Shown here piece after piece: positions 16,180 through 37,920 of a stretch of DNA of 61,373 bases. This DNA is from Capnocytophaga cynodegmi DSM 19736 (GTDB lineage Bacteria; Bacteroidota; Bacteroidia; Flavobacteriales; Flavobacteriaceae). Each line of letters opens with the position of its first letter. Within the stretch, counting starts at the first letter, position 1. The notes under the pieces were generated by a model. That model made no database searches, was not told where the DNA came from, and was given only the letters and a program-made list of their open reading frames with translations. Location: positions 1 to 61,373 of the forward strand of contig NZ_KB900708.1 of NCBI RefSeq assembly GCF_000379185.1, in the 5' to 3' direction. Position numbers and translations under genes: made by a program.

Positions 16180-16218
16180 TCCCGCAAATTAATTTTTTAA
16201 AATCTAAATAAATAGCAA

Positions 16219-21815: not shown

Positions 21816-22946
21816 ATGAAAGTTTTAACTATAATAAATTCCGCAAATATGGGAGGAATTGAAAAAACTCTTTTATCTTGTTTAAACCATATGAAGGAAG
21901 AAAAATTAAGTATGTCAATCTTATGCTATGAACCTCTTGGTGTTTTGGAAAAAAAATTCAGGAAGCTAGGGGTCGATTTTCTTTATATAAAGAAAACGGG
22001 AATGATCGTGTTGGATGCTTTACAAATTCTCCTCATACTATTGAGGCATAAATTTGATTTGGTACATAGCCGTTTTGGATTTACCTCAGGAGGCTTTGTA
22101 TTGGGTTCAAAATTAGTTGGAAAGAAAATTTACGTTTCACTACATAGTACAGAACCTTCGTCTTTGAAAAAGTTTAAATCTAACAAGCTTTTATTCAGAA
22201 TGTTATTTTTTCATCTCAAGATTCATAAGTACATAACAATGAGATTTGCTGACAAGATAATAGGACACTCAAAATCTAATCTTTATTCTAATTATCCTGA
22301 ATGGAAAACTAATAAAAAATTTCAATTGATTTACAATGGGATAGACTTTGATACATTGGATAATGATCTTGAAGAGAGTGAAAAACTAAATATTTTTAAG
22401 AAGGTTGATGATTTTGTAATTCTACATATAGGTAATTTTAGACCTGTAAAGAATCATTCTTTACTTATAGAAGGTTTTCATGATTTAAATCCAAAGTACA
22501 ACAACTACAAACTGATCTTAGTAGGTGATGGAGAATCACTAACAACAATAAAGAAAAGAGTTAAGGAATTGGATATATCTGACCACGTTTTTTTTGCTGG
22601 ATTTGATGAGAATATAGGCAAATATCTTGAAAAAGCAGATTTATTTGTTCTGCCTTCACTAACCGAAGGTTTAGGAAATGTACTCATTGAAGCACAGTAT
22701 AAGGGCATTCCTATTTGTGTTTCTAATATTCCTCCACTTTATGAGTCTGGGTACAGAGAATATCATAAGTATTATTTTGACCCAAGTGATAAAAAAATGA
22801 TGGTTGAGAAATTGAATCAAATAATATCTGACATAAAGCAAAACAAATTGAATGACACAATCAATGAAGCTCGTAAATATGTAATAAAGAACTTTTCCAT
22901 CAAATCAATGACATTAAAACTATTGAATTTATATTATGAAAAGTAA
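21816..22946 (+). CDS. glycosyltransferase, family 4 type
   Basis: This 376-residue GT-B glycosyltransferase begins with an N-terminal Rossmann-like half (ANMGGIEKTLLSCL near residue 11, the acceptor-binding glycine loop). The C-terminal donor-binding half carries GNFRPVKNHSLLIEGF near 205 and the EX7E-type segment LPSLTEGLGNVLIEAQ near 285. It should add one sugar of the repeat unit; donor and acceptor are unknown. It is 4 bp after wzx, and the next gene starts within its last 11 bp. Confidence 0.88.
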   Translation: MKVLTIINSANMGGIEKTLLSCLNHMKEEKLSMSILCYEPLGVLEKKFRKLGVDFLYIKKTGMIVLDALQILLILLRHKFDLVHSRFGFTSGGFVLGSKLVGKKIYVSLHSTEPSSLKKFKSNKLLFRMLFFHLKIHKYITMRFADKIIGHSKSNLYSNYPEWKTNKKFQLIYNGIDFDTLDNDLEESEKLNIFKKVDDFVILHIGNFRPVKNHSLLIEGFHDLNPKYNNYKLILVGDGESLTTIKKRVKELDISDHVFFAGFDENIGKYLEKADLFVLPSLTEGLGNVLIEAQYKGIPICVSNIPPLYESGYREYHKYYFDPSDKKMMVEKLNQIISDIKQNKLNDTINEARKYVIKNFSIKSMTLKLLNLYYEK

Positions 22947-24120
22947 GCCTTTATCATCCCATCTTGATTTTAGTGAAAAAGTCCTATCTATAACGATAGC
23001 TGGCTTAGCTTTGTTGTCTTGTTCACCTATAGTTTTATTTGATCTTAACGAGTCTCTCATCTTATTATTTTGTGCATTTTTTTTTATTTTACTTATAAGG
23101 CAATTTATAAAAGAAAAGTTTTGTTTAGAAAACTCGGTCATTATTACATTTTTTTTTAGCATTACGACATTTTTATACGTAGCATTCCCTTTTAGAGAAT
23201 ATGATCGTTTTTCACCCTCGACAATATGGTTACTTTTATTTTCCACAATTCTGCTACTACGAAGGATTATTCTAATAAAAGCCTTTAATATTTTTTCTAC
23301 CGCAATATATTGGGTGTGTATAACATCATTTATTATTTTACTTCTGAATGCCGCCAACATTTCGCTACCCAATCAAATTATTCCAAGGGGTGATGTAGGG
23401 GGATATTTCACATCTTATTTTATTTCAATAAAACTAAGCGGACAAGAATATTCTATGTTTGGTATAAACTTGTATAGGTTAAGTGGTATATTTGCTGAGC
23501 CTGGTCATTTTGGCTTAGTTCTAACTATGATTCTATATACATACAAAGGCATAATGAAAAGTATAAAAGGAAAGGTAATTCTACTAACCTCCTTGCTCAC
23601 ACTTTCCTTTGGTACTTTTGTATTATTATTCGGGCTTCTATTAAAGTATATTATTTTAGAAAAAAAAATACGATTATTTTTCCTCATTGGATTAGCCATA
23701 TTACTGTTTTTCTCGCTAACCCCTGTGGAAATCATTGAGCGTTTTTTTCTTGACAAAGCTGAAGGTTCTTTAGAAGAAAGAACTTCTAATTATTTTCTGA
23801 ATTTTTACAATTCATTTCTACAAAGTGGTAATATTTTAATAGGAGAAGGAAGAGATATTTTAGAGATTAACAACATCAGAAATTCTGATTATAGAGGTTT
23901 TGTCATACGCTACGGTTTTTTAGGCATATTATTGTTTTGCTGTATCATGTTATCAATGTACTGGAAAAAAGACATCACCATCAAGTTCCTAGGTTTTTTC
24001 TATTTCTTAATAGTTTTAATGCATAGATCCTGGTTTGTAGATTACTTTGCTTTTTTATTTTTCCTGTTGGTTTTAACATACAACTTACATCACAATGATA
24101 GTCAAGGAAAATCTGCATGA
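22936..24120 (+). CDS. wzy: probable polysaccharide polymerase (Wzy-like multispanning membrane protein)
   Basis: The 394-residue protein is almost wholly hydrophobic with about eleven membrane segments. A larger extracytoplasmic loop around residues 140-190 contains SGIFAEPGHFGLVLTMIL, a common feature of O-antigen polymerases (EPGxxG). No other locus gene fits the Wzy role. Wzy proteins share little sequence, so the call is based on topology, loop motif and its position between wzx and the glycosyltransferases. The start overlaps the preceding glycosyltransferase gene by 11 bp. Confidence 0.7.
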   Translation: MKSKPLSSHLDFSEKVLSITIAGLALLSCSPIVLFDLNESLILLFCAFFFILLIRQFIKEKFCLENSVIITFFFSITTFLYVAFPFREYDRFSPSTIWLLLFSTILLLRRIILIKAFNIFSTAIYWVCITSFIILLLNAANISLPNQIIPRGDVGGYFTSYFISIKLSGQEYSMFGINLYRLSGIFAEPGHFGLVLTMILYTYKGIMKSIKGKVILLTSLLTLSFGTFVLLFGLLLKYIILEKKIRLFFLIGLAILLFFSLTPVEIIERFFLDKAEGSLEERTSNYFLNFYNSFLQSGNILIGEGRDILEINNIRNSDYRGFVIRYGFLGILLFCCIMLSMYWKKDITIKFLGFFYFLIVLMHRSWFVDYFAFLFFLLVLTYNLHHNDSQGKSA

Positions 24121-24530: not shown

Positions 24531-25691
24531 ATGAAGCCCAAACTTTTTCGCGTCACAACTATTTCTGGATCCCTAAAACTTTTAAAAGGACAGTACCGTT
24601 TCATGTCAGATCATGGGTTCGAGGTTATCGGAATCTCAAGCAAAGGAAGACATCTTGATGACATAAGAAAAGATGAAGAAATTAGAACTATCGCCTTGGA
24701 GATGACTCGTACCATTTCACTATTAAAGGACTTGAAATCACTATTTCAATTCTATAAAATATGTAAAAAAGAACGTCCTTTGATTGTGCATACTCACACT
24801 CCAAAAGCAGGAATTGTAGGAATGTTGGGAGCCAAACTAGCAGGTGTTCCAATTCGCTTACATACTGTCGCTGGATTACCTTTGGTAGAGTCTAGTGGAA
24901 TAAAACGAAAAATATTAGATTTTGTGGAAAGGTTAACCTACTCCTGTGCTAGTAGAATTTATCCAAATTCTAAAAAAATGTATGAATTCATTATAAAAAA
25001 CAATTACACCTCCAAAGGTAAACTAAAGGTTATTGCTAATGGTTCGTCAAACGGAATTGACACTCAATTTTTCTCTCCTGATAGAATCACAGAAGAAAAG
25101 AAAAGCCTATTAAAAAGAAAATTAAATATTTCAGATAGTGATTTTGTTCTCATATTTGTTGGGCGAATTGTAGGAGATAAGGGAATAAATGAGTTAGTAC
25201 AAGCTTTTGTAGAGCTCAACAATCCTCAAATGAAGCTTCTACTCGTGGGAAGTCAAGAGAAAGAACTTGATCCCCTAAAAAAGCAAACATTGATAGCTTT
25301 AGAAAAAAATAAAAACATTTTATCTGTGGGGTTTCAAGATGATGTTCGCCCATATTTTGCTATCTCAAAAGCGTTAGTATTTCCTAGTTATAGGGAAGGT
25401 TTCCCAAACGTAGTAATGCAGGCAGGAGCAATGGAAGTACCAAGCATTGTATCAGATATCAATGGATGTAATGAAATCATCGTCAGCGGTGAAAATGGAA
25501 TTGTTATTCCAGTCAAGAACACCGAGGAACTAAAAAAATCAATAACAACTTTGTTTAAAAATAACGTACTTTATAACAAGCTCAAAAGTAATTGCCGAAG
25601 AATGATTGTTAATCGTTACGAACAAAAGATTATTTGGAGTTCCTTATTGAGGGAATATCAAAACCTTTTGAAACAACACTCAAAAGAATAA
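24531..25691 (+). CDS. glycosyltransferase, family 4 type
   Basis: The 386-residue GT-B enzyme has an N-terminal segment VTTISGSLKLLKGQYRFM and HTHTPKAGIVGMLGAKLAGV near residue 87. The latter is characteristic of the GT4 branch seen with capsule and O-antigen transferases (WbpH/WbpT, CapM types). The donor-side motifs are FVGRIVGDKGINEL near 208 and the EX7E-type segment FPSYREGFPNVVMQAGAMEV near 283. It should act on a HexNAc or HexNAcA donor, but the specificity is not readable. It starts after the 410-bp gap and ends 14 bp before the next glycosyltransferase. Confidence 0.88.
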   Translation: MKPKLFRVTTISGSLKLLKGQYRFMSDHGFEVIGISSKGRHLDDIRKDEEIRTIALEMTRTISLLKDLKSLFQFYKICKKERPLIVHTHTPKAGIVGMLGAKLAGVPIRLHTVAGLPLVESSGIKRKILDFVERLTYSCASRIYPNSKKMYEFIIKNNYTSKGKLKVIANGSSNGIDTQFFSPDRITEEKKSLLKRKLNISDSDFVLIFVGRIVGDKGINELVQAFVELNNPQMKLLLVGSQEKELDPLKKQTLIALEKNKNILSVGFQDDVRPYFAISKALVFPSYREGFPNVVMQAGAMEVPSIVSDINGCNEIIVSGENGIVIPVKNTEELKKSITTLFKNNVLYNKLKSNCRRMIVNRYEQKIIWSSLLREYQNLLKQHSKE

Positions 25692-25705
25692 TTAGCCATA
25701 ATTCG

Positions 25706-26701
25706 ATGAAACTATCCATCATAATCCCCATCTATAACAGCGAGAGATACTTGGGAGGATGTATTCAAAGTCTTTTTGATCAAAAAATCCCACAAGATGA
25801 TTTTGAAATTATTTTAATTAATGATGGTTCTAGCGACCAAAGCTTGAGTGTCTGCCATAAACTATCTAAAAAATATGGAAATATAAAAATAATTTCTCAA
25901 ATAAATAAAGGTCAAAGTGCTGCCAGAAATGTTGGATTTAGAAAAGCAAAAGGCAAGTATATTTTTTTCATGGATTCTGATGATCACCTAAAATCAGGCT
26001 ATTTAAATCATTTTTTAAAGGTAATAGAAGCGAAGAAACTGGATTTTTTAGGTTTTGGAAATTACAAAACCTCAAAGATGTATCGTTTTTCTGATGATTT
26101 TCGCAACTTAGAAATCACAATTGAAGGAGATGGACATAATATAATAGCAAATTATCAGTATTACAATGGTTCATCCTGGTATCTATTTGAAAGAGAACTC
26201 GCAGAAGAAATTCAATTTGAAGAAGGACGTACATGTGAGGATGTTATTTTCACCACCTTGCTTCTTCTAAAAGTGAAAAATGGATGCATATATAGCAATA
26301 AAATTTATGGTTACTACGCAAATAGTGAATCGACTCTGAAATCCAAAAAACAGGAACAGTTATGTAAAGTGACTAATGATATGTTTTATGTCGCTCTGCG
26401 ATTTAGTGAAATTATAGAGCAAACTGACTTTAAGGAAAATATGAAAGTTTTTAATCGACTAAAATCAAGACAAGAATCATACACGTACTTCGCTATTGTT
26501 CGTTTCCTCAGAAGTAAAAGAAAATACTCCGAACTGGAAAAGTTTTTGTCAGATTTGAAAGAATGTAGATATCAAGCATATCCGATTACCAACTTCAAAG
26601 GATATAATAGAAGAGATAAATTGTTAATCAAATGCTTCAACAATAAATTCTTCTTACAAACTTTCATAAAGTTCAATAGACTTTTAAACATTTTTAAATA
26701 G
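25706..26701 (+). CDS. glycosyltransferase, family 2 (GT-A)
   Basis: This 331-residue GT2 enzyme starts with MKLSIIIPIYNSERYLGGCI. It contains ILINDGSSDQS near residue 33, NKGQSAARNVGFRKAKGKYI near 64 and the metal-binding DSDD near 88 (FFMDSDDHLKS). The C-terminal 100 residues are variable. I chose the ATG at 25706 because the longer in-frame form begins inside the previous gene and the family motif starts right at this methionine. It should add one sugar to the lipid-linked repeat unit. Confidence 0.88.
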   Translation: MKLSIIIPIYNSERYLGGCIQSLFDQKIPQDDFEIILINDGSSDQSLSVCHKLSKKYGNIKIISQINKGQSAARNVGFRKAKGKYIFFMDSDDHLKSGYLNHFLKVIEAKKLDFLGFGNYKTSKMYRFSDDFRNLEITIEGDGHNIIANYQYYNGSSWYLFERELAEEIQFEEGRTCEDVIFTTLLLLKVKNGCIYSNKIYGYYANSESTLKSKKQEQLCKVTNDMFYVALRFSEIIEQTDFKENMKVFNRLKSRQESYTYFAIVRFLRSKRKYSELEKFLSDLKECRYQAYPITNFKGYNRRDKLLIKCFNNKFFLQTFIKFNRLLNIFK

Positions 26702-26736: not shown

Positions 26737-27702
26737 ATGAACATACTCATAACCTCCGCTGGACGGCGGGTTTCTTTGGTTAATTTTTTTCAGAAAGAGA
26801 TAAAACATTTAAATCCTGAGAATAAGGTTTATACGGTAGATTTAAATCCAAGCTTAGCTCCTGCTTGTGTAATTTCAGACGGTTACAAAAAAACTTGTAG
26901 TGTAACTGCTCCCGATTATATCGAAAATCTATTAAATATTTGTCAGTTATGGAATATAAAGATAATTATCCCAACGATTGACACCGAACTTTTAACTCTT
27001 GCCAAACACAAACAACTGATCTTAGATAATGGTATAATACCCATAATTTCATCGTTGGATTTTATAGACAAGTGTAGAGATAAAAGAAAAATTAATCAAT
27101 TTTTTGTAAGTAACAACATTGAAATTCCGAAAACTATTGATAAAAAAAAACTAGAGTTTCCTCTATTTATAAAACCTTATGATGGTTCAGCAAGCAAAGG
27201 TTCTATGTTGATAAATGACGCATCAGAGCTTAAAGAATATCATTTGAATAATCCTAAATTGATGTTCTTGGAGTACATTGATAAATCTCAATATGAAGAA
27301 TTTTCCATTGACACATATTATGACAAATATAATACGTTAAAGTGTTTGGTCCCTCGCAAGAGAATTTTTGTGCGTGCTGGAGAAATTAGTAAAGGAATTA
27401 CCAGAAAAAATGAACTTATAGATTTCATCAAAACTCGCTTAAACAAAATAGAAGGAGCTGTGGGTTGCCTCACGATGCAATTCTTCTTCAATCCTAATAC
27501 TAAACGAGTTGTCGGAATCGAAATTAATCCACGATTCGGAGGAGGTTATCCACTAAGTTATTTGGCTGGCGCCAATTTTCCCAAATTCATTATTGATGAG
27601 TACATCCTAAATAAAGAAATTCAACCTTTCGATAATTGGGAAGATAATTTATTGATGCTTCGTTATGATAACGAGATTTTAGTACACGACTATGAGGAAT
27701 AA
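26737..27702 (+). CDS. ATP-grasp ligase (first copy)
   Basis: The 321-residue protein has the N-terminal pre-ATP-grasp segment ILITSAGRRVSLVNFF and a CarB-like ATP-grasp domain with FIKPYDGSASKGSM near residue 144. Its C-terminal metal-binding motif is EINPRFGGGYPLSYLAG near 257. ATP-grasp enzymes of this kind activate a carboxylate as acyl phosphate and join it to an amine or thiol. It is related to the second ATP-grasp at 33528-34538. Its 3' end overlaps a ruined HAD hydrolase gene, a frequent partner in surface-glycan loci. The substrate is unknown; joining an amino or hydroxy acid to a sugar amine is one plausible role. Confidence 0.85.
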   Translation: MNILITSAGRRVSLVNFFQKEIKHLNPENKVYTVDLNPSLAPACVISDGYKKTCSVTAPDYIENLLNICQLWNIKIIIPTIDTELLTLAKHKQLILDNGIIPIISSLDFIDKCRDKRKINQFFVSNNIEIPKTIDKKKLEFPLFIKPYDGSASKGSMLINDASELKEYHLNNPKLMFLEYIDKSQYEEFSIDTYYDKYNTLKCLVPRKRIFVRAGEISKGITRKNELIDFIKTRLNKIEGAVGCLTMQFFFNPNTKRVVGIEINPRFGGGYPLSYLAGANFPKFIIDEYILNKEIQPFDNWEDNLLMLRYDNEILVHDYEE

Positions 27703-28288
27703 GTACATCATTTTTTTGATTTAGACGACACGCTAACTTACGAAATAGATTTTTTAAAATCAGCATATAAAGAGATTTCCCATTTTATTTCTAATTCTCA
27801 AAATCACGAATCTCTTTACGATAAAATGCTTGACATTTATCCTTGAGGAGAGGATGTCTTTTCATTTGTTGTTGAAAATGTATAGAAATCATTTTCCAAG
27901 TTTAAAATTAAATGATAGTGCTGAAGTAATCTTTAATTTCTATAAATCAAAAAATTATAAGATGGGACTCACACCTTATAACATTGTGTAAATCAGTAAA
28001 ATAAGCTAAAATCATTGAAGATAGAGAATATTTTTAACAAAATTATCATTTCAGAAGAATTTGGCTTTTCTAAGTCTGATGAAATTTTACCGCTTTCTAT
28101 AAAGAAGGAATTGACGAGTATTTTTATATTGCGAATGACCCAAAAAAGATTTTATCATTCCAAAATAAACTATATGCCTACTTGATAAAGGCTGAAATAT
28201 ACATACACAAAATTTCAATCTCGAAAAAGATTTCCTTCCAAAGCATAAAGTTGATGATTTAGCAAACATAACTGACATAATAATGTGA
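27692..28288 (+). pseudogene. HAD-family hydrolase pseudogene (several frameshifts and stops)
   Basis: Joining frames recovers a nearly full-length HAD hydrolase of about 200 residues. The start ATG overlaps the ATP-grasp stop by 11 bp. After MRNKYIIF a run of seven T (27711-27717) puts the frame off; one more T restores the catalytic DLDDTL at 27718-27735. Further lesions include TGA at 27844-27846, a frame change before the piece FHLLLKMYRNHFPSLKLNDS, a stop within VNQ*NKLKSLKIENIF, and frame changes around SEEFGFSKSDE and YFYIANDPKKDFI. The end is recognisable as FLPKHKVDDLANITDIIM. These repeated lesions exclude a sequencing slip at one site and show real decay. Confidence 0.85.
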
Positions 28289-28811: not shown

Positions 28812-30128
28812 ATGAAGAATATTAGAAACTATGTTTTTTGGGCGATAGACTTTGTAACAGGAGGAAAAAAGAGAGCATTCTACGAAGAAATTAGAAAAGT
28901 TTATTATCAAACTAATGGCTACGAAAAAATTACATCTCAACGATTGAGTGAGATTTTATCTTATGCCTATGAGAAAGTACCTTTCTATAAGGGAATTGAT
29001 TGCAGTAGCATAACAAACTTTCCTGTCATAACTAAGAAGATTATTAACAGCAACTACAACGATTTCTTTTCCACAGACTACATCAACAAGAAAAATAGAT
29101 TAAGACTAATGACAACGAGTGGCTCTACAGGGACTACTTTTAAAGTTTTTCAGAATTCTGATAAGGTGTTGAGAAATAAAATTGATGCCCTTTTCTTCTA
29201 TGAAATAGGTAACTATTCTCTTGGCGACAGAATTTACTCATTGCGTGTATGGACTCACTTAAATAGAAAAAAGAAGCTATCATGCCTAAAAGAAAATCTA
29301 AAGATGATAGACACCTCAGATTTATGCAAAAGAAATTGGAACTCTTTTAAGAGTGATATGTTAAACTACTCTTCTCCGAAAATAATTTTGGCGTATGCAT
29401 CATCCCTTACTGAATTTTTAAATTCTTTGTCTGACGAAGAAAAAAAGCTTAAATGGGGTATAAAGTCAATTTTTTCGGGTGCTGAGGAATTGCCTTTGCA
29501 CGTAAAAAGGGAATTAAAAAAAGTTTTTAAATGTCCTATAGTGTCTCGTTATTCGAATCAGGAAATGGGTATATTTGCTCAACAACCTATTTCTGGGGAA
29601 GAATATTTTTTAACTAATGATGCTAGTTATTATTTTGAATTTTTAAAACTTGATAGTGACAAAAACGCACAAGAGGATGAAATCGCAAGAATTGTAGTCA
29701 CAGATTTATTTAACAAAGCAATGCCTTTGATTCGTTACGACACTGGGGACTTGTGTACTTTTGGAACAAGAAACAATAGAAAATATATAAAAGTAATACA
29801 AGGAAGAACGTTGGATCTTTTAAAAAGTAAAAGCGGACAAATTTATTCCCCCTATACTATAATTCTCTTGCTGTGGAATTTTAAAGGTATCATACAGTTT
29901 CAATTCATACAAGAAGATTTAAATTTTATCGTACTGAGGTTAGTCCATAATTTTGAAAACAAAGAACAAAGTTTTAAGGATATTGAAGAAAATCTAAGGT
30001 CCCTCTTTGGAAAACAAACCACAATTAAGATTGAAGAAGTCACTGAAATACCGTCAGAAAAAACAGGGAAACGGAGATACATAATTTCGAAACTAAATAT
30101 CAATGATAATCAAACAATAACAAAATAA
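28812..30128 (+). CDS. CapK-like adenylate-forming enzyme (phenylacetate-CoA ligase superfamily), first copy
   Basis: This 438-residue protein belongs to the PaaK/CapK branch of adenylate-forming enzymes. Visible motifs are the phosphate-binding TTSGSTGTTFKVF near residue 100, the adenine-side segment SRYSNQEMG near 245 and PLIRYDTGDLCTFG near 302. The C-terminal part ends with EVTEIPSEKTGKRRYIIS, typical of the family. CapK-like proteins occur in capsule loci without a proven reaction; the superfamily activates carboxylates as acyl adenylates. It lies 21 bp before a second, divergent copy. I infer that it activates an acid used to decorate the glycan. Confidence 0.83.
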   Translation: MKNIRNYVFWAIDFVTGGKKRAFYEEIRKVYYQTNGYEKITSQRLSEILSYAYEKVPFYKGIDCSSITNFPVITKKIINSNYNDFFSTDYINKKNRLRLMTTSGSTGTTFKVFQNSDKVLRNKIDALFFYEIGNYSLGDRIYSLRVWTHLNRKKKLSCLKENLKMIDTSDLCKRNWNSFKSDMLNYSSPKIILAYASSLTEFLNSLSDEEKKLKWGIKSIFSGAEELPLHVKRELKKVFKCPIVSRYSNQEMGIFAQQPISGEEYFLTNDASYYFEFLKLDSDKNAQEDEIARIVVTDLFNKAMPLIRYDTGDLCTFGTRNNRKYIKVIQGRTLDLLKSKSGQIYSPYTIILLLWNFKGIIQFQFIQEDLNFIVLRLVHNFENKEQSFKDIEENLRSLFGKQTTIKIEEVTEIPSEKTGKRRYIISKLNINDNQTITK

Positions 30129-30149
30129 TTAACTATTAAAAGACTTAAC

Positions 30150-31469
30150 ATGTATTTAGATGAACTAATAAGAAACAAAGTTTTTTTCCTCTTAGATTTC
30201 ATTAAAGGGAAAAACATTTCTAAAAAGATTAATTTACTAGATGATTTTTATCGTGATTCCAAGGAAAATCAATTGCATATCGTCAACAATAAACTTGTAA
30301 ATTTATTGAACGATGTTACAAAAAATGTCCCTTTTTACATGGACAAAGGGGGGCTTTCTGATTTAAAAGACTTCCCTATTGTAAATAAGAAAAATATATA
30401 TCAAAACACCATTTCCTTTTATTCCAAGATATACAACTCCAAAAAACTTGTTCCTGTTCGCACAAGTGGTTCCTACGGAACTCCGTTAACTTACTTTCTA
30501 ACTAAGAAAAAAAAGGAAAGTCAGTTGGCTGAAGTCATTTTTTTTGGAAGGAAAAGCGGGTATGATGTAGGAGTTCGTCACGGATATTTTAGATCCATCC
30601 CACATAAAACAAACTTTAAATTTTGGATGCAAAATGAAACTTTTTTTGCTTCGAAACAGCTAAATGAGGAGTTTGTCTCCTTAGGAATAAAAAATCTTAA
30701 GAAAAAAAGAATTAAATCTTTGATAGGGTTTCCTTCTGCAATTTCTTATTTAGCTAAGAGTTGTCTTGAAAAGGGGTATCTCCCTTCTGATTTTAAAGTG
30801 AAAGGAGTGATTACTTCATCAGAAAATTTGACTAGTCACCAGAGAAAAACAATAAGGAAAGCTTTTGATTGTGCTATCCACAGTAGATACTCGACGGAAG
30901 AACTAGGTGTACTTGGGAATCAGCTTGATGAGACTTCTGGATTTGTGATGAATACGTTCAATTATATCATAGAAGTTTTAAAACTAGATAGAGATGAAAG
31001 TGCCGATATTGGGGAAATTGGAAGAATTGTTGTAACAGATTTACATTCTAACTCGATGCCTTTAATTCGTTATGAGACAGGCGATTTAGGTAAAATAGGT
31101 AATTTTTTCTGTAATGAAAAAAAATGGGTGGGCAATATAAGTATGTTATCTGGAAGAGCTGTTCAAATTATATACAGTACAAATGGAACACCTTTATATC
31201 CTCTTTTTTTAGACAGTATTATGGAAAAATATGATTACTTCTCCCAATATCAATTGATCCAGAATGACAAAAAAGACTTTACTATCAAACTGGTCACAAA
31301 CAACTATTACTCTGAGGATCAATTCGACATCAATAAATTTCTAAATTATTTCTATAATTGGCTAGGAAATGATGCAAATGTAACTGTTGATTTTGTAAAA
31401 GACATCGACAAACTCCCTTCTGGCAAAAGACCTTATATTATAAACAGATATAAAGAGTTTGCACCATGA
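30150..31469 (+). CDS. CapK-like adenylate-forming enzyme, second divergent copy
   Basis: This 439-residue paralogue or homologue of the preceding gene shares the order VRTSGSYGTPLTYF (near residue 107), SRYSTEELG (near 248), PLIRYETGDLGKIG (near 307) and PSGKRPYIINRY (near 425). The phosphate-binding loop reads SGSYGTP where the first copy has SGSTGTT, so one conserved position differs. The N-terminal halves are clearly less alike than the C-terminal halves. Its stop codon overlaps the start of the phosphoglycosyl transferase gene (ATGA), a sign of translational coupling. Different acid specificity from the first copy is likely but not shown. Confidence 0.82.
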   Translation: MYLDELIRNKVFFLLDFIKGKNISKKINLLDDFYRDSKENQLHIVNNKLVNLLNDVTKNVPFYMDKGGLSDLKDFPIVNKKNIYQNTISFYSKIYNSKKLVPVRTSGSYGTPLTYFLTKKKKESQLAEVIFFGRKSGYDVGVRHGYFRSIPHKTNFKFWMQNETFFASKQLNEEFVSLGIKNLKKKRIKSLIGFPSAISYLAKSCLEKGYLPSDFKVKGVITSSENLTSHQRKTIRKAFDCAIHSRYSTEELGVLGNQLDETSGFVMNTFNYIIEVLKLDRDESADIGEIGRIVVTDLHSNSMPLIRYETGDLGKIGNFFCNEKKWVGNISMLSGRAVQIIYSTNGTPLYPLFLDSIMEKYDYFSQYQLIQNDKKDFTIKLVTNNYYSEDQFDINKFLNYFYNWLGNDANVTVDFVKDIDKLPSGKRPYIINRYKEFAP

Positions 31470-32110
31470 ACATGATATACAAGACTTATATAAAACGTTT
31501 TATCGACTTTTCAGTAGCTCTTATGGGGTTGATTTTATTTTCTCCCATATTTCTAGTCACGATGATGTGTTTATATTTTGTAAATCAAGGAAAGCCATTC
31601 TTCTTCCAAGAACGACCAGGGTTGAACGAAAAGATTTTTAAAATTATAAAATTCAAATCAATGAATGATAAGAGAGATAGAAATGGAAATTTGCTCTCTG
31701 ACAATGAACGATTAACCAAAGTTGGTGCCTTTGTTAGAAGAACTTCGTTGGATGAGATTCCACAACTAATAAATGTCCTCAAAGGCGATATGTCTCTTGT
31801 TGGACCTCGTCCATTACTAACAAAATATCTACCATACTACACTGAAAGAGAAAAGATTAGACACAACGTAAGACCTGGAATAACGGGACTAGCACAAGTT
31901 ACTGGTAGAAATACTATTAATTGGGATGAAAAATTGGAGTTAGATGCTAAGTATGTAGAAACGATATCTTTTTGCAATGATATAAGAATATTGTTAAAGA
32001 CAGTAAAAAATGTAATAAGTAGAAAGGACGTTATTGTGATACCTGGAAGTGCTTTTACAACATTAGATAAATACAGACAAAATGACGATAATACCAAAAA
32101 AATTCAGTAA
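31466..32110 (+). CDS. initiating phosphoglycosyl transferase (PglC/WcaJ-C type)
   Basis: The 214-residue monotopic phosphoglycosyl transferase moves a sugar phosphate from UDP-sugar to undecaprenyl phosphate. It has one N-terminal hydrophobic re-entrant segment (residues 11-38), then [20 protein letters not shown], the catalytic Asp-Glu in [17 protein letters not shown] near 94 and VGPRPLL near 112. [21 protein letters not shown] near 134 is also diagnostic. It lacks the long N-terminal part of WbaP or WcaJ, so it resembles PglC, which uses UDP-diNAc-bacillosamine. The nearby aminotransferase and dehydratase genes support a 4-amino-4,6-dideoxy-HexNAc as first sugar. Confidence 0.92.
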
Positions 32111-32621
32111 ATTGGATATCCCAATTCGAGTAGCTTGGATTAATGATGAAAGAATAAACAAGAGCATGTCTTTTTCCTTACCAGCTTCAATTGAAGCTAC
32201 GGAGGCTTGGTTTGTGAATAATATTGGAAATACTAAAAGAGCTGATTTCTCTTTTTTCAACGAGTTTGGAGAACTTATTGCAATGGGAGGATTCACTAAC
32301 ATAAATCAACAAAGTCAAAATGCAGAATTTTACATCATGGTTAATCCTAACATGCAAGGGAAGGGTATTGGAAAACAAGTTTCAATTTGGCTATTTAATT
32401 ATGGCTTTTCTGTCGTTAAATTAAACAAGATCTATCTATATACTGATGATGATAATATAAAGGCCTACAATATTTATGAAAAAGCAGGCTTTGTATTAGA
32501 AGGCACTCTTAGGCAGCATCATTTTAGGAAAAACACATGGACTAACAAAAGATTCTACGGATTATTGAGAGCCGAATGGAATACAAAGCACTGGAAAAAA
32601 AACATTTACAATGAAGTTTAA
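32082..32621 (+). CDS. GNAT N-acetyltransferase (PseH-like)
   Basis: The 179-residue GNAT protein has the acetyl-CoA-binding loop NPNMQGKGIGKQVSIWLF near residues 87-104 and the C-terminal pattern DDDNIKAYNIYEKAGFVLEG near 124. This pattern is found in PseH-type and other GNAT enzymes that acetylate UDP-4-amino sugars. Its start lies 29 bp inside the preceding transferase gene, and its end overlaps the next gene by 11 bp. In the bacillosamine pathway the acetyltransferase PglD has a left-handed beta-helix, so a GNAT here would be a functional analogue, as in pseudaminic acid synthesis. The substrate is inferred from context. Confidence 0.83.
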   Translation: MTIIPKKFSKLDIPIRVAWINDERINKSMSFSLPASIEATEAWFVNNIGNTKRADFSFFNEFGELIAMGGFTNINQQSQNAEFYIMVNPNMQGKGIGKQVSIWLFNYGFSVVKLNKIYLYTDDDNIKAYNIYEKAGFVLEGTLRQHHFRKNTWTNKRFYGLLRAEWNTKHWKKNIYNEV

Positions 32622-33522
32622 TCTAATACAAAATATTCAAGGTTATACATTTTTTAGGGATGACTTATTTCCCTTTTTAGGGGGCGGAAACAAGGGACGA
32701 AAGATGAATGAAATAGGAAAATTTGTCCTATCGAATAGTTACAATGCACTAGTAACTACAGGAGGATTCCAATCAAACCACTGTAGAGCTGTTGCCGTTT
32801 TTGCCGCTCAAAACAAGATGGATTGTACATTAGTTATACATGGTTCAAAAGACTCTTTCCTTAAACAATCTGGCAATGCAAAAATCATGAGGCTGTCTGG
32901 AGCAGAGATTGTCTTTGTAAACGAGCCGAAAGAAATTGGATATGAAATGGATGAAGCCATGCAACGATATAATAAAAAAAATAAAAAACCTTTCTATATT
33001 TTTGGAGGAGGACACAATATAGAGGGAGGATATGCCTATGTAAAATCTATTAAGGAGCTACAAAGGTATAAAATAAAGCACAGCTGGGAACCTAAGTATA
33101 TTTTTCTAGCTTCAGGGACGGGTTCAACTCAATCTGGTATTCTAGCTGGGTTAGATAAGTTTAATTTCGAGAACACTAAAGTTATTGGAGTGTCTGTTGC
33201 CAGAAAATCTTCCCAAGCAGAAAAAATAGTGGATGAGTTATATCAATCCCTATGTGTATCCTACCAAATATCATACACTAAACGTACTTCAATTGTTCTT
33301 GATGATTATTTATGTGGTGGTTATGGCTTATATGACAAAAATATAGAAGAAGTAGCAAGAACCTCCGTAAAAAACTTTGGGGTAACTTTAGATTGCTGTT
33401 ATACAGCAAAAGCATTCCACGGAATGATAGATTTTATGAACAAAAATAACATCAATAAAAGAGACGTTTTATTTTGGCATACTGGTGGGATTTTTAACTT
33501 TATGGCAGAAGCAAATCAATAA
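32611..33522 (+). CDS. D-cysteine desulfhydrase / ACC deaminase-like PLP enzyme
   Basis: This 303-residue fold-type II PLP enzyme resembles 1-aminocyclopropane-1-carboxylate deaminase and D-cysteine desulfhydrase. The PLP lysine is in FLGGGNKGRKM near residue 27. The next segment, TTGGFQSNHCRAVA near 49, contains the Ser-Asn-His signature. The phosphate loop is ASGTGSTQSG near 167 and the C-terminal motif is FWHTGGIFN near 290. These enzymes act on small amino acids (elimination, deamination or, in relatives, racemisation). It lies inside a polysaccharide operon and only 5 bp before an ATP-grasp gene, which suggests that it prepares an amino-acid-derived group for attachment. Its true reaction is unknown. 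Confidence 0.82.
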   Translation: MKFNLIQNIQGYTFFRDDLFPFLGGGNKGRKMNEIGKFVLSNSYNALVTTGGFQSNHCRAVAVFAAQNKMDCTLVIHGSKDSFLKQSGNAKIMRLSGAEIVFVNEPKEIGYEMDEAMQRYNKKNKKPFYIFGGGHNIEGGYAYVKSIKELQRYKIKHSWEPKYIFLASGTGSTQSGILAGLDKFNFENTKVIGVSVARKSSQAEKIVDELYQSLCVSYQISYTKRTSIVLDDYLCGGYGLYDKNIEEVARTSVKNFGVTLDCCYTAKAFHGMIDFMNKNNINKRDVLFWHTGGIFNFMAEANQ

Positions 33523-33527
33523 ACATC

Positions 33528-34538
33528 ATGAATATACTTTTTACTTGTGCAGGACGAAGAAATTACTTAATTAACTACTTTAAAAAAGCTTTAGAGAATC
33601 AGGGAAAGGTTTTTGCCTCAGATATGAATCTCACAGCCCCAGCATTGGTTGATGCTGATATGGCCATTCAAGTCCCAGAAATTTATGAAAGAGACTACAT
33701 ATCGACAATCATTGGAATTATAAAAGAACACAACATTTCTGCTGTAATTTCATTGAATGATTTGGAACTCCCTATCTTATCTAGGTGCAAAGAAGAAATA
33801 GAAAAAATTGGAACAAGAGTCATCATTTCTGATGATAACGTAATTAAAATTGCTTTTGACAAATGGGAAACAGTGAAATTTCTAAATAGTATTGGACTAA
33901 AATCCCCCAAAACATTTATTAACTTAAATGAAGCTAAAAAAGCTATCGATGAAGGCTCTTTAAGTTTTCCTTTAGTCATTAAACCTCGTTGGGGGAGTGC
34001 TTCAATTGGAATTCACTTCCCAGAAAATCTTGAGGAGCTGGATTTAGTATACCAACTACAAACCATTCAATTAAAAAAAACTATTCTTGCGGAAGCTAGC
34101 AACGAGGATATTGATCATGCTATCCTCATACAAGAAAAGATACAAGGAACAGAATATGGAATGGATATCCTAAACGATTTTCAAGGAAACTATATAGGTA
34201 CATTCGTTCGTAAAAAATTGTCCATGAGAGCAGGTGAAACAGACAAAGCTATTTCAGTAATAGATGAGAGATTTAATCAGGTAGGAAAAATTATAGGAGA
34301 GAATTTAAAACATATAGGAAACTTAGACTGTGATGTTTTTGAGTGCGATGGAAAACTGTATATCTTAGAGCTAAATCCTCGCTTTGGTGGTGGATACCCT
34401 TTTTCACATGAAGCAGGAAGCAACACAGCAGCAGCTTATATCGAATGGTTGAAGGGAGGAAATAATATTTCCCAATACCTTGATTACAAAGAAGGAATAA
34501 TGTTTTCCAAGTGTGATAGACTACTAAGAATTAATTAG
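33528..34538 (+). CDS. ATP-grasp ligase (second copy)
   Basis: The 336-residue protein is a relative of the ATP-grasp protein at 26737-27702. The N-terminus ILFTCAGRRNYLINYF matches that of the first copy. The ATP-grasp core has LVIKPRWGSASIGIHF near residue 147, and the metal-binding motif is ELNPRFGGGYPFSHEAG near 282. It has an intact reading frame and follows the PLP enzyme by 5 bp, so the two probably work in sequence. ATP-dependent ligation of a carboxylate to an amine is the family reaction; donor and acceptor are inferred only from the locus. Confidence 0.85.
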   Translation: MNILFTCAGRRNYLINYFKKALENQGKVFASDMNLTAPALVDADMAIQVPEIYERDYISTIIGIIKEHNISAVISLNDLELPILSRCKEEIEKIGTRVIISDDNVIKIAFDKWETVKFLNSIGLKSPKTFINLNEAKKAIDEGSLSFPLVIKPRWGSASIGIHFPENLEELDLVYQLQTIQLKKTILAEASNEDIDHAILIQEKIQGTEYGMDILNDFQGNYIGTFVRKKLSMRAGETDKAISVIDERFNQVGKIIGENLKHIGNLDCDVFECDGKLYILELNPRFGGGYPFSHEAGSNTAAAYIEWLKGGNNISQYLDYKEGIMFSKCDRLLRIN

Positions 34539-34684
34539 CACCATCTTATAGCGTATAAAATATGAACACTTTCTAATACAATAAAATTTCCAATTTTTCA
34601 CAAGAGATACAGAATATCATTATAAAAACGCTAATAGGTAGCATAAAGAAATGTTAAATATATAAAAGAATAGAGTTTTATATT

Positions 34685-34692
34685 TACCTTTG
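34685..34692 (+). promoter_or_regulatory. -7 element TACCTTTG before the aminotransferase gene
   Basis: TACCTTTG is followed by GCAC, a strong match to the Bacteroidota -7 element. It predicts transcription from about 34699 and so excludes the in-frame TTG at 34690 as the start of the following gene. It suggests that the aminotransferase and dehydratase genes form a separate transcript. Confidence 0.55.
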
Positions 34693-34770
34693 CACACCAA
34701 AAACAGTTGTTATTACAACGATCAATCTAAAATAAAGTCATTTTTAAGTATTTCAAAACCATTAAAGAAA

Positions 34771-35895
34771 ATGAATTCAAAAGTATGGTTATCTTCACCT
34801 CATATGGGAGGAAGTGAACTTAAGTATATCCACGAAGCGTTTGACCAAAATTGGGTTGCCCCACTTGGTCCTAATGTAAACGGATTTGAAGAAGATTTAG
34901 AAAAATATTTAGAACAAAATGTAAAGGTGGCAGCTCTCTCTGCAGGTACTGCAGCTCTGCACTTAGCTTTAGTTGCTCTTGGTGTAAAATCGGGAGATGA
35001 GGTGATTTGCCAGAGTTTTACGTTTTCAGCTTCCGCAAATCCAATTGTTTATCAGGGCGCTACCCCCATTTTTGTTGACAGTGAGCCACAAACTTGGAAC
35101 ATTTGCCCACAAGCGTTAGAAGAAGCCATAAAACACCGTATTTCAAAAGGTAGAAAACCTAAAGCCATCATTGTTGTACATCTTTACGGAATGCCTGTAA
35201 AAATGGATGAAGTACTTCAAGTGGCGAATCGTTATGAAATCCCTGTCATCGAAGATGCTGCTGAGGCTTTGGGAAGTACATTCAAAGGACAAAAATGTGG
35301 TACTTTCGGAGAAATGGCAATCCTTAGTTTTAATGGAAATAAAATCATAACAACTTCTGGAGGAGGAGCTTTAGTGTGTAAAAAAGCTGAGCAAAAAGAA
35401 AAAGTTGTGTTCCTTTCTACTCAAGCAAGAGACAACGCACCTCATTATCAACACTCACACATTGGATATAACTACCGAATGAGTAATATATCAGCTGGAA
35501 TTGGTCGTGGACAAATGGAAGTACTTGAAGAAAGAGTTGCTCAAAGACGTAAAAATCACTCCTTCTATCAAGAGTTTTTTAAAGATTTTGATGGAATTAC
35601 ACTCTTCACGGAACCTAATTCTGATTTCTTTTCAAATCATTGGCTTTCAGCAATAACAATTGATAATAAAAAAACAGGTTTTGATAGAGAAGAACTGCGT
35701 CTGAAATTCCTTGAGGATAACATTGAAACGCGTCCTCTGTGGAAACCTATGCATTTACAACCCGTTTTTGCCGATGCTCCATATTACGGAGGAAATGTTT
35801 CTGAAACTTTATTCGATAAAGGTCTTTGTCTTCCTTCTGGTTCTAATATGACAGATGAAGATAGAGAACGAATCGCAAAAATTTTCTCTAAATAA
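34771..35895 (+). CDS. DegT/DnrJ/EryC1-family sugar aminotransferase (PglE-like)
   Basis: The 374-residue PLP-dependent enzyme transaminates a UDP-4-keto-6-deoxy sugar. Motifs in order are SSPHMGGSELKYI near residue 6, ALSAGTAALHLALVALG near 53, the PLP aspartate region VIEDAAEALGSTFKGQKCG near 158, and the Schiff-base lysine in LSFNGNKIITTSGGGAL near 183. The segment SFNGNKIITTSGGG is typical of PglE/PseC/WbpE-like enzymes. I chose the ATG at 34771 over an upstream TTG that overlaps the promoter. With the CapD-like dehydratase downstream it should make a UDP-4-amino-4,6-dideoxy-HexNAc. Confidence 0.9.
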   Translation: MNSKVWLSSPHMGGSELKYIHEAFDQNWVAPLGPNVNGFEEDLEKYLEQNVKVAALSAGTAALHLALVALGVKSGDEVICQSFTFSASANPIVYQGATPIFVDSEPQTWNICPQALEEAIKHRISKGRKPKAIIVVHLYGMPVKMDEVLQVANRYEIPVIEDAAEALGSTFKGQKCGTFGEMAILSFNGNKIITTSGGGALVCKKAEQKEKVVFLSTQARDNAPHYQHSHIGYNYRMSNISAGIGRGQMEVLEERVAQRRKNHSFYQEFFKDFDGITLFTEPNSDFFSNHWLSAITIDNKKTGFDREELRLKFLEDNIETRPLWKPMHLQPVFADAPYYGGNVSETLFDKGLCLPSGSNMTDEDRERIAKIFSK

Positions 35896-35982
35896 TTCAA
35901 AAACATAAATATTTACTACTTAACCTAAATTATAAAACTTTTGCTCAGAGATTCTTTGCAAAAATAAAAATAATTGCTGATA

Positions 35983-37920
35983 ATGAACAAAGTAACATAT
36001 AATGAGCGTAATGTCATTGACTTATCTAGTCTCAGATATCTTCCCAGATGGTCTGTTCTAATTATTGATATTTTCCTAGCTGTCGTCTCTCTTTTCGTTT
36101 CTTTTTATCTATTAAACGGATTAGATGTAAAAAATAGTGATAACCTACCTCTTTATCAAAAGTATATTTTGATTATCGGAATAAATATCATATTCATGTT
36201 AATTTTCAGAACATACTCTGGTATAATTCGTCACTCTACATTTGCCGATTTGTTCAAAATTTTACTATCAAATGTATCAACAATATTTATCCTTTGGCTC
36301 ATAAATGTAGCGAATATTATTGCGGTAGGAGAGGTATTGTTACCAAATATTCCTCTAATACTTTATTTTACAATTTCTTTTGTATTGATGTCGTTTTTCC
36401 GGTTGTTTGTCAAAGAAATTTTTCAGCAATTAAAAGAATTCAGAAGAAGTGCATTAAAGAAACGTATTCTTATATTAGGAATAGACGAGGAATCGATATC
36501 AATGGCAAAGGCAATTATGGGAAATCCAAAATTGCCCTATGATGTAGCTGGTTTCCTAACCCAAAGAACAGACTCCAACCACGCTGTACTTTTAGGTAAG
36601 GCTATCTATAGCAAGGACAAACTTATGAAATATCGTAAGGAGTATCTTGGTTTACATGGAATACTTATAAATAAAAATAACTTCTCTAAAGAAGAATTAA
36701 ACCAATGGGTAAATTTCTTCTTGGAGAGAGGATTGGTAATTCTAAAAACTCCGTCTTTACAAAAATTACGTCCTGATGAAAATATCAAAATTCACCAAGT
36801 TCAAATTGAAGATTTGCTCAACAGAAAACCTATTGTAATCCAAAACGACGAAGTGAAAAAACGACACTTCCAAAAAAATGTATTGGTTACAGGAGGAGCT
36901 GGTTCTATCGGGAGTGAAATTGTGCGTCAGGTGGCTTCATTCAACCCTTCATTAGTTGTAGTTTTAGACCAAGCTGAAACCCCTTTGTATGATATTGAGC
37001 TGGAAATGAAAGAGAAATTCCCTAATACGAAATTTAAGTTCGTTTTAGCAGATATCTCGAACAAAGAACGTATAGAAAGTGTTTTTATGGAACATGATTT
37101 TTCTATGGTATACCACGCGGCAGCTTACAAACACGTTCCTTTGATAGAAGAAAACCCTCACGAGGCTATTTTAGTAAACATTCAAGGAAGTAAAAACTTA
37201 GCATTACTTTCCAGCAAATACAAAATAAATCGTTTTGTAATGGTTTCTACCGATAAGGCTGTAAACCCCACAAACGTTATGGGAGCCTCAAAACGGACCG
37301 CTGAACTTTTCGTACAAGCACTTCAAAATGAAGAAGGTAACGCTACTAAGTTCATCACAACTCGTTTCGGAAACGTATTAGGTTCTAATGGTTCAGTAAT
37401 CCCTCACTTCAGAAAACAGATTGAAAAAGGAGGTCCCGTAACCATAACACATCCTGATATTGTTCGCTATTTTATGACTATTCCAGAAGCTTGTGAGTTG
37501 GTTCTTCAGGCGGGAACGATGGGTAAAGGAGGAGAAATTTTCGTGTTTGATATGGGAGAACCTGTTAAAATCCTCAATTTAGCTACCCGTATGATAAAAT
37601 TATCTGGTTATGAACCAAATGTAGATATAAAAATTGTTTACACAGGACTAAGACCAGGTGAAAAACTTTATGAAGAACTTTTAAGTGATGACACAAGAAC
37701 ACTTCCTACTCACCACGAGAAAATAATGGTGTCTAAAGATCCGACAATGGCTTTTAAAGAAATTGATGCCTTATCAAACAAAATTAGTGCAGCTGCCAAG
37801 TTAGGCGACAAAATTGAGGTGGTTCGTATTCTGAAAGAAATAGTTAAAGAATTTAAGAGTAATAATTCAATCTTTGAGATTTTGGACAGAAACCAAGAAC
37901 AAATTAAAGAACATTCATAA
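35983..37920 (+). CDS. membrane-bound UDP-HexNAc 4,6-dehydratase (CapD/WbpM/PglF-like)
   Basis: The 645-residue protein has four N-terminal transmembrane helices (to about residue 140), a CoA-binding-like Rossmann domain and a C-terminal SDR dehydratase domain. The NAD motif is LVTGGAGSIGSEIVRQ near residue 302, and the catalytic region is VSTDKAVNPTNVMGASKRTAE near 418. In this family a methionine replaces the tyrosine of the usual YxxxK. VRYFMTIPEACELVLQA follows near 500. The enzyme converts UDP-GlcNAc to the 4-keto-6-deoxy sugar, the substrate of the adjacent aminotransferase. An ATG was preferred to a TTG nine bases upstream. The gene ends before a strong terminator. Confidence 0.93.
   Translation: MNKVTYNERNVIDLSSLRYLPRWSVLIIDIFLAVVSLFVSFYLLNGLDVKNSDNLPLYQKYILIIGINIIFMLIFRTYSGIIRHSTFADLFKILLSNVSTIFILWLINVANIIAVGEVLLPNIPLILYFTISFVLMSFFRLFVKEIFQQLKEFRRSALKKRILILGIDEESISMAKAIMGNPKLPYDVAGFLTQRTDSNHAVLLGKAIYSKDKLMKYRKEYLGLHGILINKNNFSKEELNQWVNFFLERGLVILKTPSLQKLRPDENIKIHQVQIEDLLNRKPIVIQNDEVKKRHFQKNVLVTGGAGSIGSEIVRQVASFNPSLVVVLDQAETPLYDIELEMKEKFPNTKFKFVLADISNKERIESVFMEHDFSMVYHAAAYKHVPLIEENPHEAILVNIQGSKNLALLSSKYKINRFVMVSTDKAVNPTNVMGASKRTAELFVQALQNEEGNATKFITTRFGNVLGSNGSVIPHFRKQIEKGGPVTITHPDIVRYFMTIPEACELVLQAGTMGKGGEIFVFDMGEPVKILNLATRMIKLSGYEPNVDIKIVYTGLRPGEKLYEELLSDDTRTLPTHHEKIMVSKDPTMAFKEIDALSNKISAAAKLGDKIEVVRILKEIVKEFKSNNSIFEILDRNQEQIKEHS

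Follow-up and report, generated by a model that had tools for sequence, protein, structure and literature searches.

In Flavobacterium psychrophilum, the O-polysaccharide loci carry a PglC homolog, pglE/pglF and wfp R-group genes, which differ between strains and serve the N4 acylation of D-Qui2NAc4NR (PMC6519341, accessible part). The R1 group is 3,5-dihydroxyhexanoyl, for which the authors invoke an acyl-carrier-protein pathway and a PglD-like transferase; neither ATP-grasp nor aminotransferase is mentioned in the main text of the paper, as far as it is accessible (PMC6519341). Here, we describe a polysaccharide locus of Capnocytophaga cynodegmi DSM 19736, found in a stretch of 61,373 nucleotides (contig NZ_KB900708.1, hereafter the window), which resembles this system in that close relatives carry differing gene sets between PglC and PglE/PglF. 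However, instead of the acyl-carrier-protein and PglD-like route, the window has genes for a GNAT N-acyltransferase, a pyridoxal phosphate (PLP) enzyme of the PALP family and an ATP-grasp ligase, named ATP-grasp #2 as another ATP-grasp gene lies upstream. We propose, and give about even chances, that this GNAT-PALP-ATP-grasp cassette, placed between PglC and PglE/PglF, decorates the C4 amine of a QuiNAc4N-type sugar with an N-acyl-aminoacyl group.

The dehydratase, aminotransferase and loading transferase types are shared with the Campylobacter Pgl pathway (PglF, PglE, PglD, PglC). However, that pathway has PglD, while the slot in the window has no PglD-like gene and contains GNAT, PALP and ATP-grasp genes instead. 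We take the best solved relatives of the Pgl type to be Campylobacter enzymes. The PALP protein shares the fold and the aligned active-site residues of the D-cysteine desulfhydrase/1-aminocyclopropane-1-carboxylate (ACC) deaminase family, but differs from it by scores under the cut-offs and by a separate clade. ATP-grasp #2 matches the PRK12767/PylC-like ligases (PDB 2pn1, deposited as a carbamoylphosphate synthase large subunit) over nearly its full length; in the open-access literature, we found no member of this family with a tested sugar-aminoacylating role.

The proposed product class exists, as N-acyl-aminoacyl amino sugars are known from marine bacteria. According to the accessible part of a review (PMC3210612), 3- and 4-(N-acetyl-D-alanyl)amino-dideoxy-D-glucose occur in Pseudoalteromonas, e.g., 4-(N-acetyl-D-alanyl)amino-4,6-dideoxy-D-glucose, and N-acetylglycyl and 3-hydroxybutyryl-L-alanyl groups are found on Qui4N in antigens of marine bacteria. 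These sugars are of the same chemotype as the one proposed here; the genes are not named in that part of the review (PMC3210612).

The cassette and the 4-amino sugar genes

The six genes from the loading transferase to the dehydratase are all on the + strand:

31466..32110, + strand: PglC-like phosphoglycosyl transferase (Pfam Bac_transf, 209 bits; best PDB match 8e37, N,N'-diacetylbacillosaminyl-1-phosphate transferase, 225 bits)
32082..32621, + strand: GNAT N-acyltransferase, proposed amino-acid cap (Pfam GNAT families)
32611..33522, + strand: PALP, fold-type II PLP enzyme, D-cysteine-desulfhydrase-like, proposed amino-acid supplier (Pfam PALP, 92 bits; distinct module clade)
33528..34538, + strand: ATP-grasp #2, carboxylate-amine ligase family, proposed 4-N-aminoacylating enzyme (Pfam PylC-like_N and ATP-grasp domains)
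34771..35895 (open reading frame (ORF) 34690-35895), + strand: PglE-like 4-aminotransferase (Pfam DegT, 340 bits; best PDB matches 1o61 and 4ztc, 336 and 334 bits)
35974..37920, + strand: PglF-like UDP-GlcNAc 4,6-dehydratase (Pfam Polysacc_synt_2, 397 bits; best PDB match 5bju, WlaL)

The likely start of the PglE-like protein is M28, at about 34771, judged from orthologs of 373-377 residues in the genus. The match of WlaL (5bju) to the PglF-like protein has 284.5 bits and covers residues 275-631 of 648. We take WlaL to be PglF, and 1o61 and 4ztc are presumably PglE. By these PDB matches, the PglF-like, PglE-like and PglC-like members of the Pgl-type QuiNAc4N pathway are all present in the window; a PglD/NeuD-type N-acetyltransferase is missing from the slot, where Pfam finds a GNAT in its place. 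The sugar made is probably UDP-QuiNAc4N, because the loading transferase, the aminotransferase and the dehydratase all match Pgl-type enzymes best among solved proteins. This agrees with the original prediction, in which these genes make and load a 4-amino-4,6-dideoxy-N-acetylhexosamine (HexNAc).

That prediction named eight genes in 28812-37920, the six above and two upstream CapK-like genes; all are open ORFs with family matches in Pfam, NCBIfam or PDB, which for the CapK pair are distant only. It also described the genes as overlapping or nearly so, which is true of the first six. The gap between CapK1 and CapK2 is 21 bp, CapK2 and PglC overlap by 4 bp, the PglC and GNAT ORFs by 29 bp and GNAT and PALP by 11 bp, and 5 bp separate PALP from ATP-grasp #2. 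It is less so for the last two, as the distance from ATP-grasp #2 to the PglE-like (DegT) gene is 151 bp if TTG is taken as the start and about 232 bp if the start favoured by the orthologs in the genus is used, and 78 bp separate DegT from PglF.

PALP and ATP-grasp form a recurrent module

A module was defined as a PALP gene with a relative of ATP-grasp #2 (tblastn E 1e-25) at most 4 kb away. Named genomes were scanned with a three-row PALP alignment, and the loci kept are the best 80 of at least 492 confirmed relatives; non-module PALPs are therefore undersampled, and those retained are mostly from Chloroflexota. An earlier genome scan, in which the PALP protein alone was the query, gave 26 pattern matches, none of them confirmed. 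Neighbours were mapped for 92 PALP matches, i.e., the 80 scan loci, other genome stretches and two plasmid loci (loci outside the window are numbered with an L). Several loci stop at contig ends, and absences there apply to the available stretch.

An ATP-grasp #2 relative lies within 4 kb of PALP in 22 of the 92 matches, including all 17 top-scoring ones, so that the search for the gene set in other genomes, suggested by the original prediction, yields at least 22 further PALP/ATP-grasp pairs. A maximum-likelihood tree of 93 PALPs, which contains no experimentally tested enzyme, unites the window PALP with these 22 in a single clade (support 99/97, recovered in 98% of 200 bootstrap trees), to the exclusion of the 70 other PALPs. 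The instances come from Bacteroidota, Pseudomonadota (including Acinetobacter, Pseudoalteromonas, Marinobacter, Advenella, a Sphingobium plasmid and an E. coli IncR plasmid) and Bacillota (Aquisalibacillus), and one Pseudoalteromonas contig has two copies (L061).

The two proteins also diverge together. The correlation of PALP and ATP-grasp distances is r = 0.88 (n=23), the highest of six pairs tried, followed by PALP-PglC (0.73, n=19), PALP-GNAT (0.72, n=15), ATP-grasp-GNAT (0.68, n=15), ATP-grasp-DegT (0.59) and PALP-DegT (0.54, both n=20). None of 5000 permutations attains any of the six values. The distance data cover 15 of the 23 instances for GNAT, 19 for PglC and 20 for DegT. Taken with the N-acyltransferases and sugar genes described below, the sequence data support the view that PALP, ATP-grasp and an N-acyltransferase act as a unit associated with 4-aminosugar loci.

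Among 394 other genomes of the phylum sample, it is present in at least two (G359, G439); 22 of these genomes have a PALP match at E 1e-25, and the context was viewed for six, two of which have the module. Of 5426 E. coli genomes, 4 contain plasmid-type module DNA, always on a plasmid and never on a chromosome, and the Acinetobacter module DNA has no match in this E. coli collection. The IncR plasmid carries an O-antigen-like locus that includes the module (L167, 4108-12982). On several Chloroflexota contigs (L062, L067, L070, L079, L081, L086, L090, L098, L125), a non-module PALP lies about 2-5 kb from PglC-/PglF-like genes.

The PALP enzyme differs in sequence from solved relatives

The window PALP is under every curated cut-off among its NCBIfam matches, e.g., D-cysteine desulfhydrase TIGR01275 (168.9 versus 289.4) and CuyA NF052482 (177.8 versus 450). 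Its best solved relative is the D-cysteine desulfhydrase 4d8t with 101 bits, in a match starting at residue 15 of PALP and residue 52 of the chain. Public records label the module clade as 1-aminocyclopropane-1-carboxylate deaminase/D-cysteine desulfhydrase.

The row of L023, with a very long branch, was kept in the PALP tree and removed before residues were counted. In the alignment, K28, S55, Y264 and T291-G292-G293 are present in all 23 module PALPs and in 69 of 69 others; we take these positions, which align with D-cysteine desulfhydrase and ACC deaminase, to belong to the active site and to include the PLP lysine. In contrast, H135 and T170 are found in 23 of 23 module PALPs, while all 69 others have serine at both positions. 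The solved D-cysteine desulfhydrase also has serine at 135 and 170, and ACC deaminase has threonine at 170. G132 is likewise present in every module PALP, and glycine occurs there in at least one of the 69 others. The module PALP probably acts on a different substrate.

N-acyltransferases and gene fusions

An N-acyltransferase is found near PALP and ATP-grasp in all 23 instances: 19 have a GNAT, two a formyltransferase (L044, and L053 of Parapedobacter soli) and two a hexapeptide acyltransferase (L050 of Sinomicrobium, and L055). Among the 19, the GNAT of L060 is a partial domain and that of L058 is about 2.2 kb away. In L059, GNAT and PALP are fused in a single ORF of 477 residues, in L068 GNAT and ATP-grasp are fused in a single ORF of 528 residues, and the partial GNAT of L060 is fused to PALP. 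These fusions suggest that the enzymes perform successive steps on one substrate.

The best PDB matches of the window GNAT are diamine/spermidine N-acetyltransferases with 61-63 bits, while PseH obtains 25-26 bits; in NCBIfam, the PseH model TIGR03585 scores 58.0, under its cut-off of 93.1. With polyamine acetyltransferases as best matches and PseH weaker, the acceptor cannot be read from the sequence.

The two hexapeptide-capped loci (L050 6540-9356, L055 2853-4876) also contain HpcH/HpaI-type genes, by Pfam for L050, and additionally genes that we read as MaoC-like. The HpcH/HpaI-type and MaoC-like genes may provide a hydroxyacyl cap. The expected cap would be formyl in L053 and either hydroxyacyl or acetyl in L050.

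The slot between PglC and DegT is exchangeable within the genus

ATP-grasp #2 passes the NCBIfam model PRK12767.1-3 (439.5 versus a cut-off of 316) and aligns to PDB 2pn1 with 168 bits. An alignment of 18 module ATP-grasps contains invariant residues. Orthologs of the DegT protein, 72-94% identical, are present in 8 of 19 other genomes of the genus, and the nine resulting loci show five kinds of content between PglC and DegT. The GNAT-PALP-ATP-grasp content occurs only in the window. L188 and L193 have ATP-grasp #2 alone; L189, L190 and L191 have it together with a NeuD/PglD-like acyltransferase, which in L189 passes TIGR03570 (226 versus 160.8); L194 and L195 have a PglD-like acyltransferase alone; and in L192 such an acyltransferase is accompanied by a ketoacyl synthase III and proteins read as VOC, FkbH-like and SDR. 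No remnant of a hexapeptide acyltransferase was detected between ATP-grasp and DegT in the window or L188 (best E 0.75).

In some of these loci, an acyltransferase is the sole slot enzyme and in others an ATP-grasp, as judged at the locus and not genome-wide, so that the simplest reading is acylation of the same 4-amine by both. ATP-grasp #2 is thus likely the 4-N-acylating ligase.

Behind PglF, at 14840-16463, L188 carries one more PglC-like gene (63%) and a further ATP-grasp (34%), so that this locus may have two loading transferases and two cassettes.

The sugar target of the module

A sugar aminotransferase is found at most 4 kb from the module in 20 of the 23 instances (19 of 22, and the window). 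A PglC-like gene lies within the same distance in 19, the others being L044, L060, the first copy of L061, and L167. Here another nucleotide sugar may be used: L167 carries annotated rfbA and dTDP-glucose 4,6-dehydratase genes, genes in L044 and L060 are read as RmlA/RmlB-like, and for the aminotransferases of L044, the first copy of L061 and L167 the best NCBIfam model is the DesI dTDP-4-keto-sugar aminotransferase, below its cut-off. Because of the aminotransferase in 20 of 23 instances and these DesI-type best scores where PglC is distant, the shared partner of the module is probably a 4-amine. The module seems to accompany 4-amino-6-deoxy sugars, whichever of the two nucleotides carries them.

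The CapK pair and the upstream genes

By the ORF list, Pfam, NCBIfam and tblastn, the polysaccharide locus spans 16219-37920 of the window on the + strand. The gene order is a beta-helix lipoprotein, TviC-like, TviB-like, Wzx, glycosyltransferases, a probable Wzy, ATP-grasp #1, a broken HAD gene, CapK1, CapK2, PglC-like, GNAT, PALP, ATP-grasp #2, DegT and PglF-like. The genes before PglC are:

18078..19067, + strand: UDP-HexNAc(A) C4-epimerase, TviC-like (NCBIfam PRK15181 TviC, 381 bits, below the cut-off of 760; Pfam Epimerase)
19110..20393, + strand: UDP-HexNAc 6-dehydrogenase, TviB-like (NCBIfam PRK15182 TviB, 568 bits, cut-off 592; NDP-sugDHase, 391, cut-off 189.8)
20405..21811, + strand: Wzx-type flippase (Pfam Polysacc_synt_3; MOP flippase PRK10459, 239 bits, cut-off 273)
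21816..22946, + strand: GT4 glycosyltransferase (Pfam Glycos_transf_1)
22936..24120, + strand: probable Wzy polymerase, from its hydrophobic sequence and position (no Pfam or NCBIfam match)
24531..25691, + strand: GT4 glycosyltransferase (54-55% in the same-genus loci L188-L190, 63% in L195)
25706..26701 (ORF 25634-26701, likely start 25706), + strand: GT2 glycosyltransferase (56-68% in the same-genus loci L188-L190)
26737..27702, + strand: ATP-grasp #1 (closest to PRK12767.1-4, 389.0 versus a cut-off of 390; clade separate from ATP-grasp #2)
27715..28285 (about), + strand: broken HAD-hydrolase gene (tblastn pieces of 54% and 50% identity, E 4e-30 and 4e-32; intact in the same-genus L188)
28812..30128, + strand: CapK1, distant PaaK-like protein, apparent backbone gene (59-62% relatives in four same-genus loci)
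30150..31469, + strand: CapK2, second copy (31% to CapK1)

The first gene of the locus, at 16219-17919, codes for a right-handed beta-helix lipoprotein, possibly a glycan-acting enzyme. A similar-looking gene (L171 12360-14210) adjoins a CapK-PglC locus in another genus of the family. The TviC-like epimerase and the TviB-like dehydrogenase suggest an N-acetylhexosaminuronic acid (HexNAcA) residue in the repeat. The HAD-like gene is open in L188-L190, where it overlaps the ATP-grasp #1 gene, and a comparable ATP-grasp/HAD pair is seen on a Priestia plasmid (L169), after PglF-, DegT- and PglC-like genes.

The original prediction called the CapK-like proteins adenylating enzymes. A distant relation to PaaK is seen, but only as a distant-homology call, since no curated cut-off is reached. 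Neither CapK protein has a Pfam match at E 0.001; against the NCBIfam model DVU_1553 (AMP-dependent CoA ligase) they score 80 and 92 bits, under the cut-off of 300, and solved PaaK-like ligases match weakly with partial coverage (CapK1 29 bits, CapK2 50 bits). In L188-L190, the order is glycosyltransferase, GT2, ATP-grasp #1, HAD, CapK1, PglC, and the stretch of L191 starts at CapK1. In L170 and L171, CapK relatives precede PglC without a PALP. Among the 22 other module instances, a CapK relative is found only in L059, between PALP and ATP-grasp; CapK was therefore set aside as a part of the amino-acid module and looks like a backbone gene. No second close copy like CapK2 is found in the 19 other genomes of the genus. 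Tandem CapK-like arrays are also seen in other genomes of the phylum, with three genes in L142 (contig G298:C50) and two in L149 (G337:C37).

Proposed mechanism and alternative explanations

The enzyme families, the recurrence and co-inheritance of the module, the fusions and the exchangeable slot are seen in the sequences and their comparison; how the steps follow one another, that the product is an amide and which part each enzyme plays are what we infer. The PglF-like 4,6-dehydratase and the PglE-like 4-aminotransferase would make the QuiNAc4N-type sugar, and the PglC-like enzyme would load it. PALP would make or invert a non-standard amino acid, and the GNAT would cap the amino group of this amino acid, before or after ligation. 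Using ATP, the ATP-grasp would then join the carboxylate of the amino acid to the 4-amine, giving UDP-QuiNAc4N-(N-acyl-aminoacyl). The simplest order would be PALP, GNAT, ATP-grasp. The original prediction of an activated carboxylate or amino acid on the sugar amine is partly supported: its ATP-grasp and PLP enzyme stand, now joined by an N-acyltransferase, through their recurrence, clade and slot. Its CapK pair finds no support as a part of the amino-acid module, as a CapK relative is found in one of 22 other instances and CapK also occurs without PALP.

It can further be speculated that the module PALP clade has a new dedicated racemising or beta-substituting activity and that, with the ATP-grasp as a sugar aminoacyl ligase and an interchangeable N-capping enzyme, it forms a mobile toolkit for N-acyl-aminoacyl 4-aminosugars in at least three phyla, where one cassette predicts one non-standard amino acid. 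We regard this as possible, but would lean against it.

Several observations weigh against the proposed aminoacylation. Five ATP-grasps of the genus, 64-77% identical, have no PALP neighbour; their genomes contain weak PALP relatives or none, and in the tree these ATP-grasps nest inside the PALP-bearing ATP-grasp clade. Two other-family ATP-grasps (L135, L136; 40-44%) are also without an adjacent PALP, the former lying beside a formyltransferase-like gene and the latter beside a beta-keto acid cleavage enzyme. No sugar aminotransferase is found within 4 kb in L045, L052 and L057 (3 of 23). The GNAT is most similar to polyamine acetyltransferases and, more weakly, to PseH, which acetylates the sugar amine itself. 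Finally, we found no strain with both a solved glycan and a known module. The five ATP-grasps of the genus rule out a strict dependence of ATP-grasp on PALP. They show that the ligase can use something not made by PALP, and PALP is therefore read as the supplier of a special amino acid and not as an essential partner. By reading, L136 (9128-12593) also contains GT2-like and NeuD-like genes, perhaps with the cleavage enzyme as another acid-making partner.

Among the alternatives, it is conceivable but unlikely that the GNAT acetylates the 4-amine directly, as in diacetylbacillosamine, and that PALP and ATP-grasp act on a different residue, e.g., to amidate the HexNAcA carboxyl group. The score of the GNAT on PseH (58 bits, cut-off 93.1) is in line with direct acetylation, and the TviB/TviC-like genes provide a candidate acid, as do UDP-sugar dehydrogenase relatives in the module loci L051, L054, L066, L068, L069 and L091. 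However, such a dehydrogenase is not found in the available stretch of L044, L053, L060, L061, L063 and L167, among others, although it could lie elsewhere, and the amidation of an acid fits poorly with the sugar aminotransferase near 20 of 23 modules and with the slots of the genus that hold only an ATP-grasp at the same place. We think it improbable that CapK1 and CapK2 activate an organic acid, as an adenylate or CoA ester, for transfer to the 4-amine by the GNAT, with PALP and ATP-grasp acting separately. CapK1 lies directly upstream of PglC in four loci of the genus, and CapK likewise in L170 and L171; the CapK of L059 sits between PALP and ATP-grasp, and the module of L058 has another, Pfam-recognised AMP-binding ligase. 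Nevertheless, 21 of the 22 other module instances have no CapK relative in their available stretches, CapK relatives occur without GNAT or PALP, and the CapK proteins themselves are without a Pfam match.

The PALP-less relatives of ATP-grasp #2, including L135 with its formyltransferase-like neighbour and L136 with its beta-keto acid cleavage enzyme, could also mean that the group attached by the ATP-grasp is a small acid or a standard amino acid drawn from metabolism, and that the PALP product enters elsewhere, e.g., as a second dipeptide-like residue or a sulfur or amino donor. This we consider very improbable given the tight linkage of PALP and ATP-grasp in 23 instances. The least probable of the explanations considered here is that PALP is a housekeeping D-cysteine desulfhydrase, a passenger without a role in the glycan. 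It belongs to the same fold family, its best solved relative is a desulfhydrase (101 bits), the active-site residues are kept, and other loci of the genus manage without PALP. However, a plain desulfhydrase was set aside because PALP has its own clade tied to ATP-grasp, diverges with it (r = 0.88) and is found fused to GNAT. The H135/T170 pair, in 23 of 23 against S/S in 69 of 69, also separates it from the others, even if ACC deaminase has T at the second site, and the genome has a second PALP relative elsewhere (contig C18).

Relation to described glycans

The original prediction knew of no described pathway with this exact set of genes. None was found in the open-access literature; the general arrangement is however known from F. 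psychrophilum (PMC6519341, accessible part). As far as the open-access literature shows, the combination of a PLP enzyme, a capping enzyme and an ATP-grasp is new as an exchangeable N-acyl cassette, while the cassette type itself is known. No paper naming both ATP-grasp and bacillosamine was found there, and nothing fitting on CapK. The capsule of Capnocytophaga canimorsus contains QuiNAc, FucNAc and GalA, and the accessible part of the paper does not mention an aminotransferase or bacillosamine (PMC5156936). In the main text of a second C. canimorsus capsule paper, as far as accessible, ATP-grasp and aminotransferase are absent (PMC5442547), and so are desulfhydrase, deaminase and alanyl in the corresponding text of a paper on the A. 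baumannii K-locus (PMC9676051). No genes of the module kind were found linked to aminoacyl-sugar chemistry in the accessible parts of the open-access literature.

In F. psychrophilum, differences in the R-group genes for the N4 substituent accompany antigenic differences between lipopolysaccharides (PMC6519341, accessible part). If the proposed aminoacylation is true, the module would define a testable new activity for the ATP-grasp ligase and for the PLP enzyme clade, and a fixed enzyme logic would allow aminoacyl groups to be predicted from sequence.

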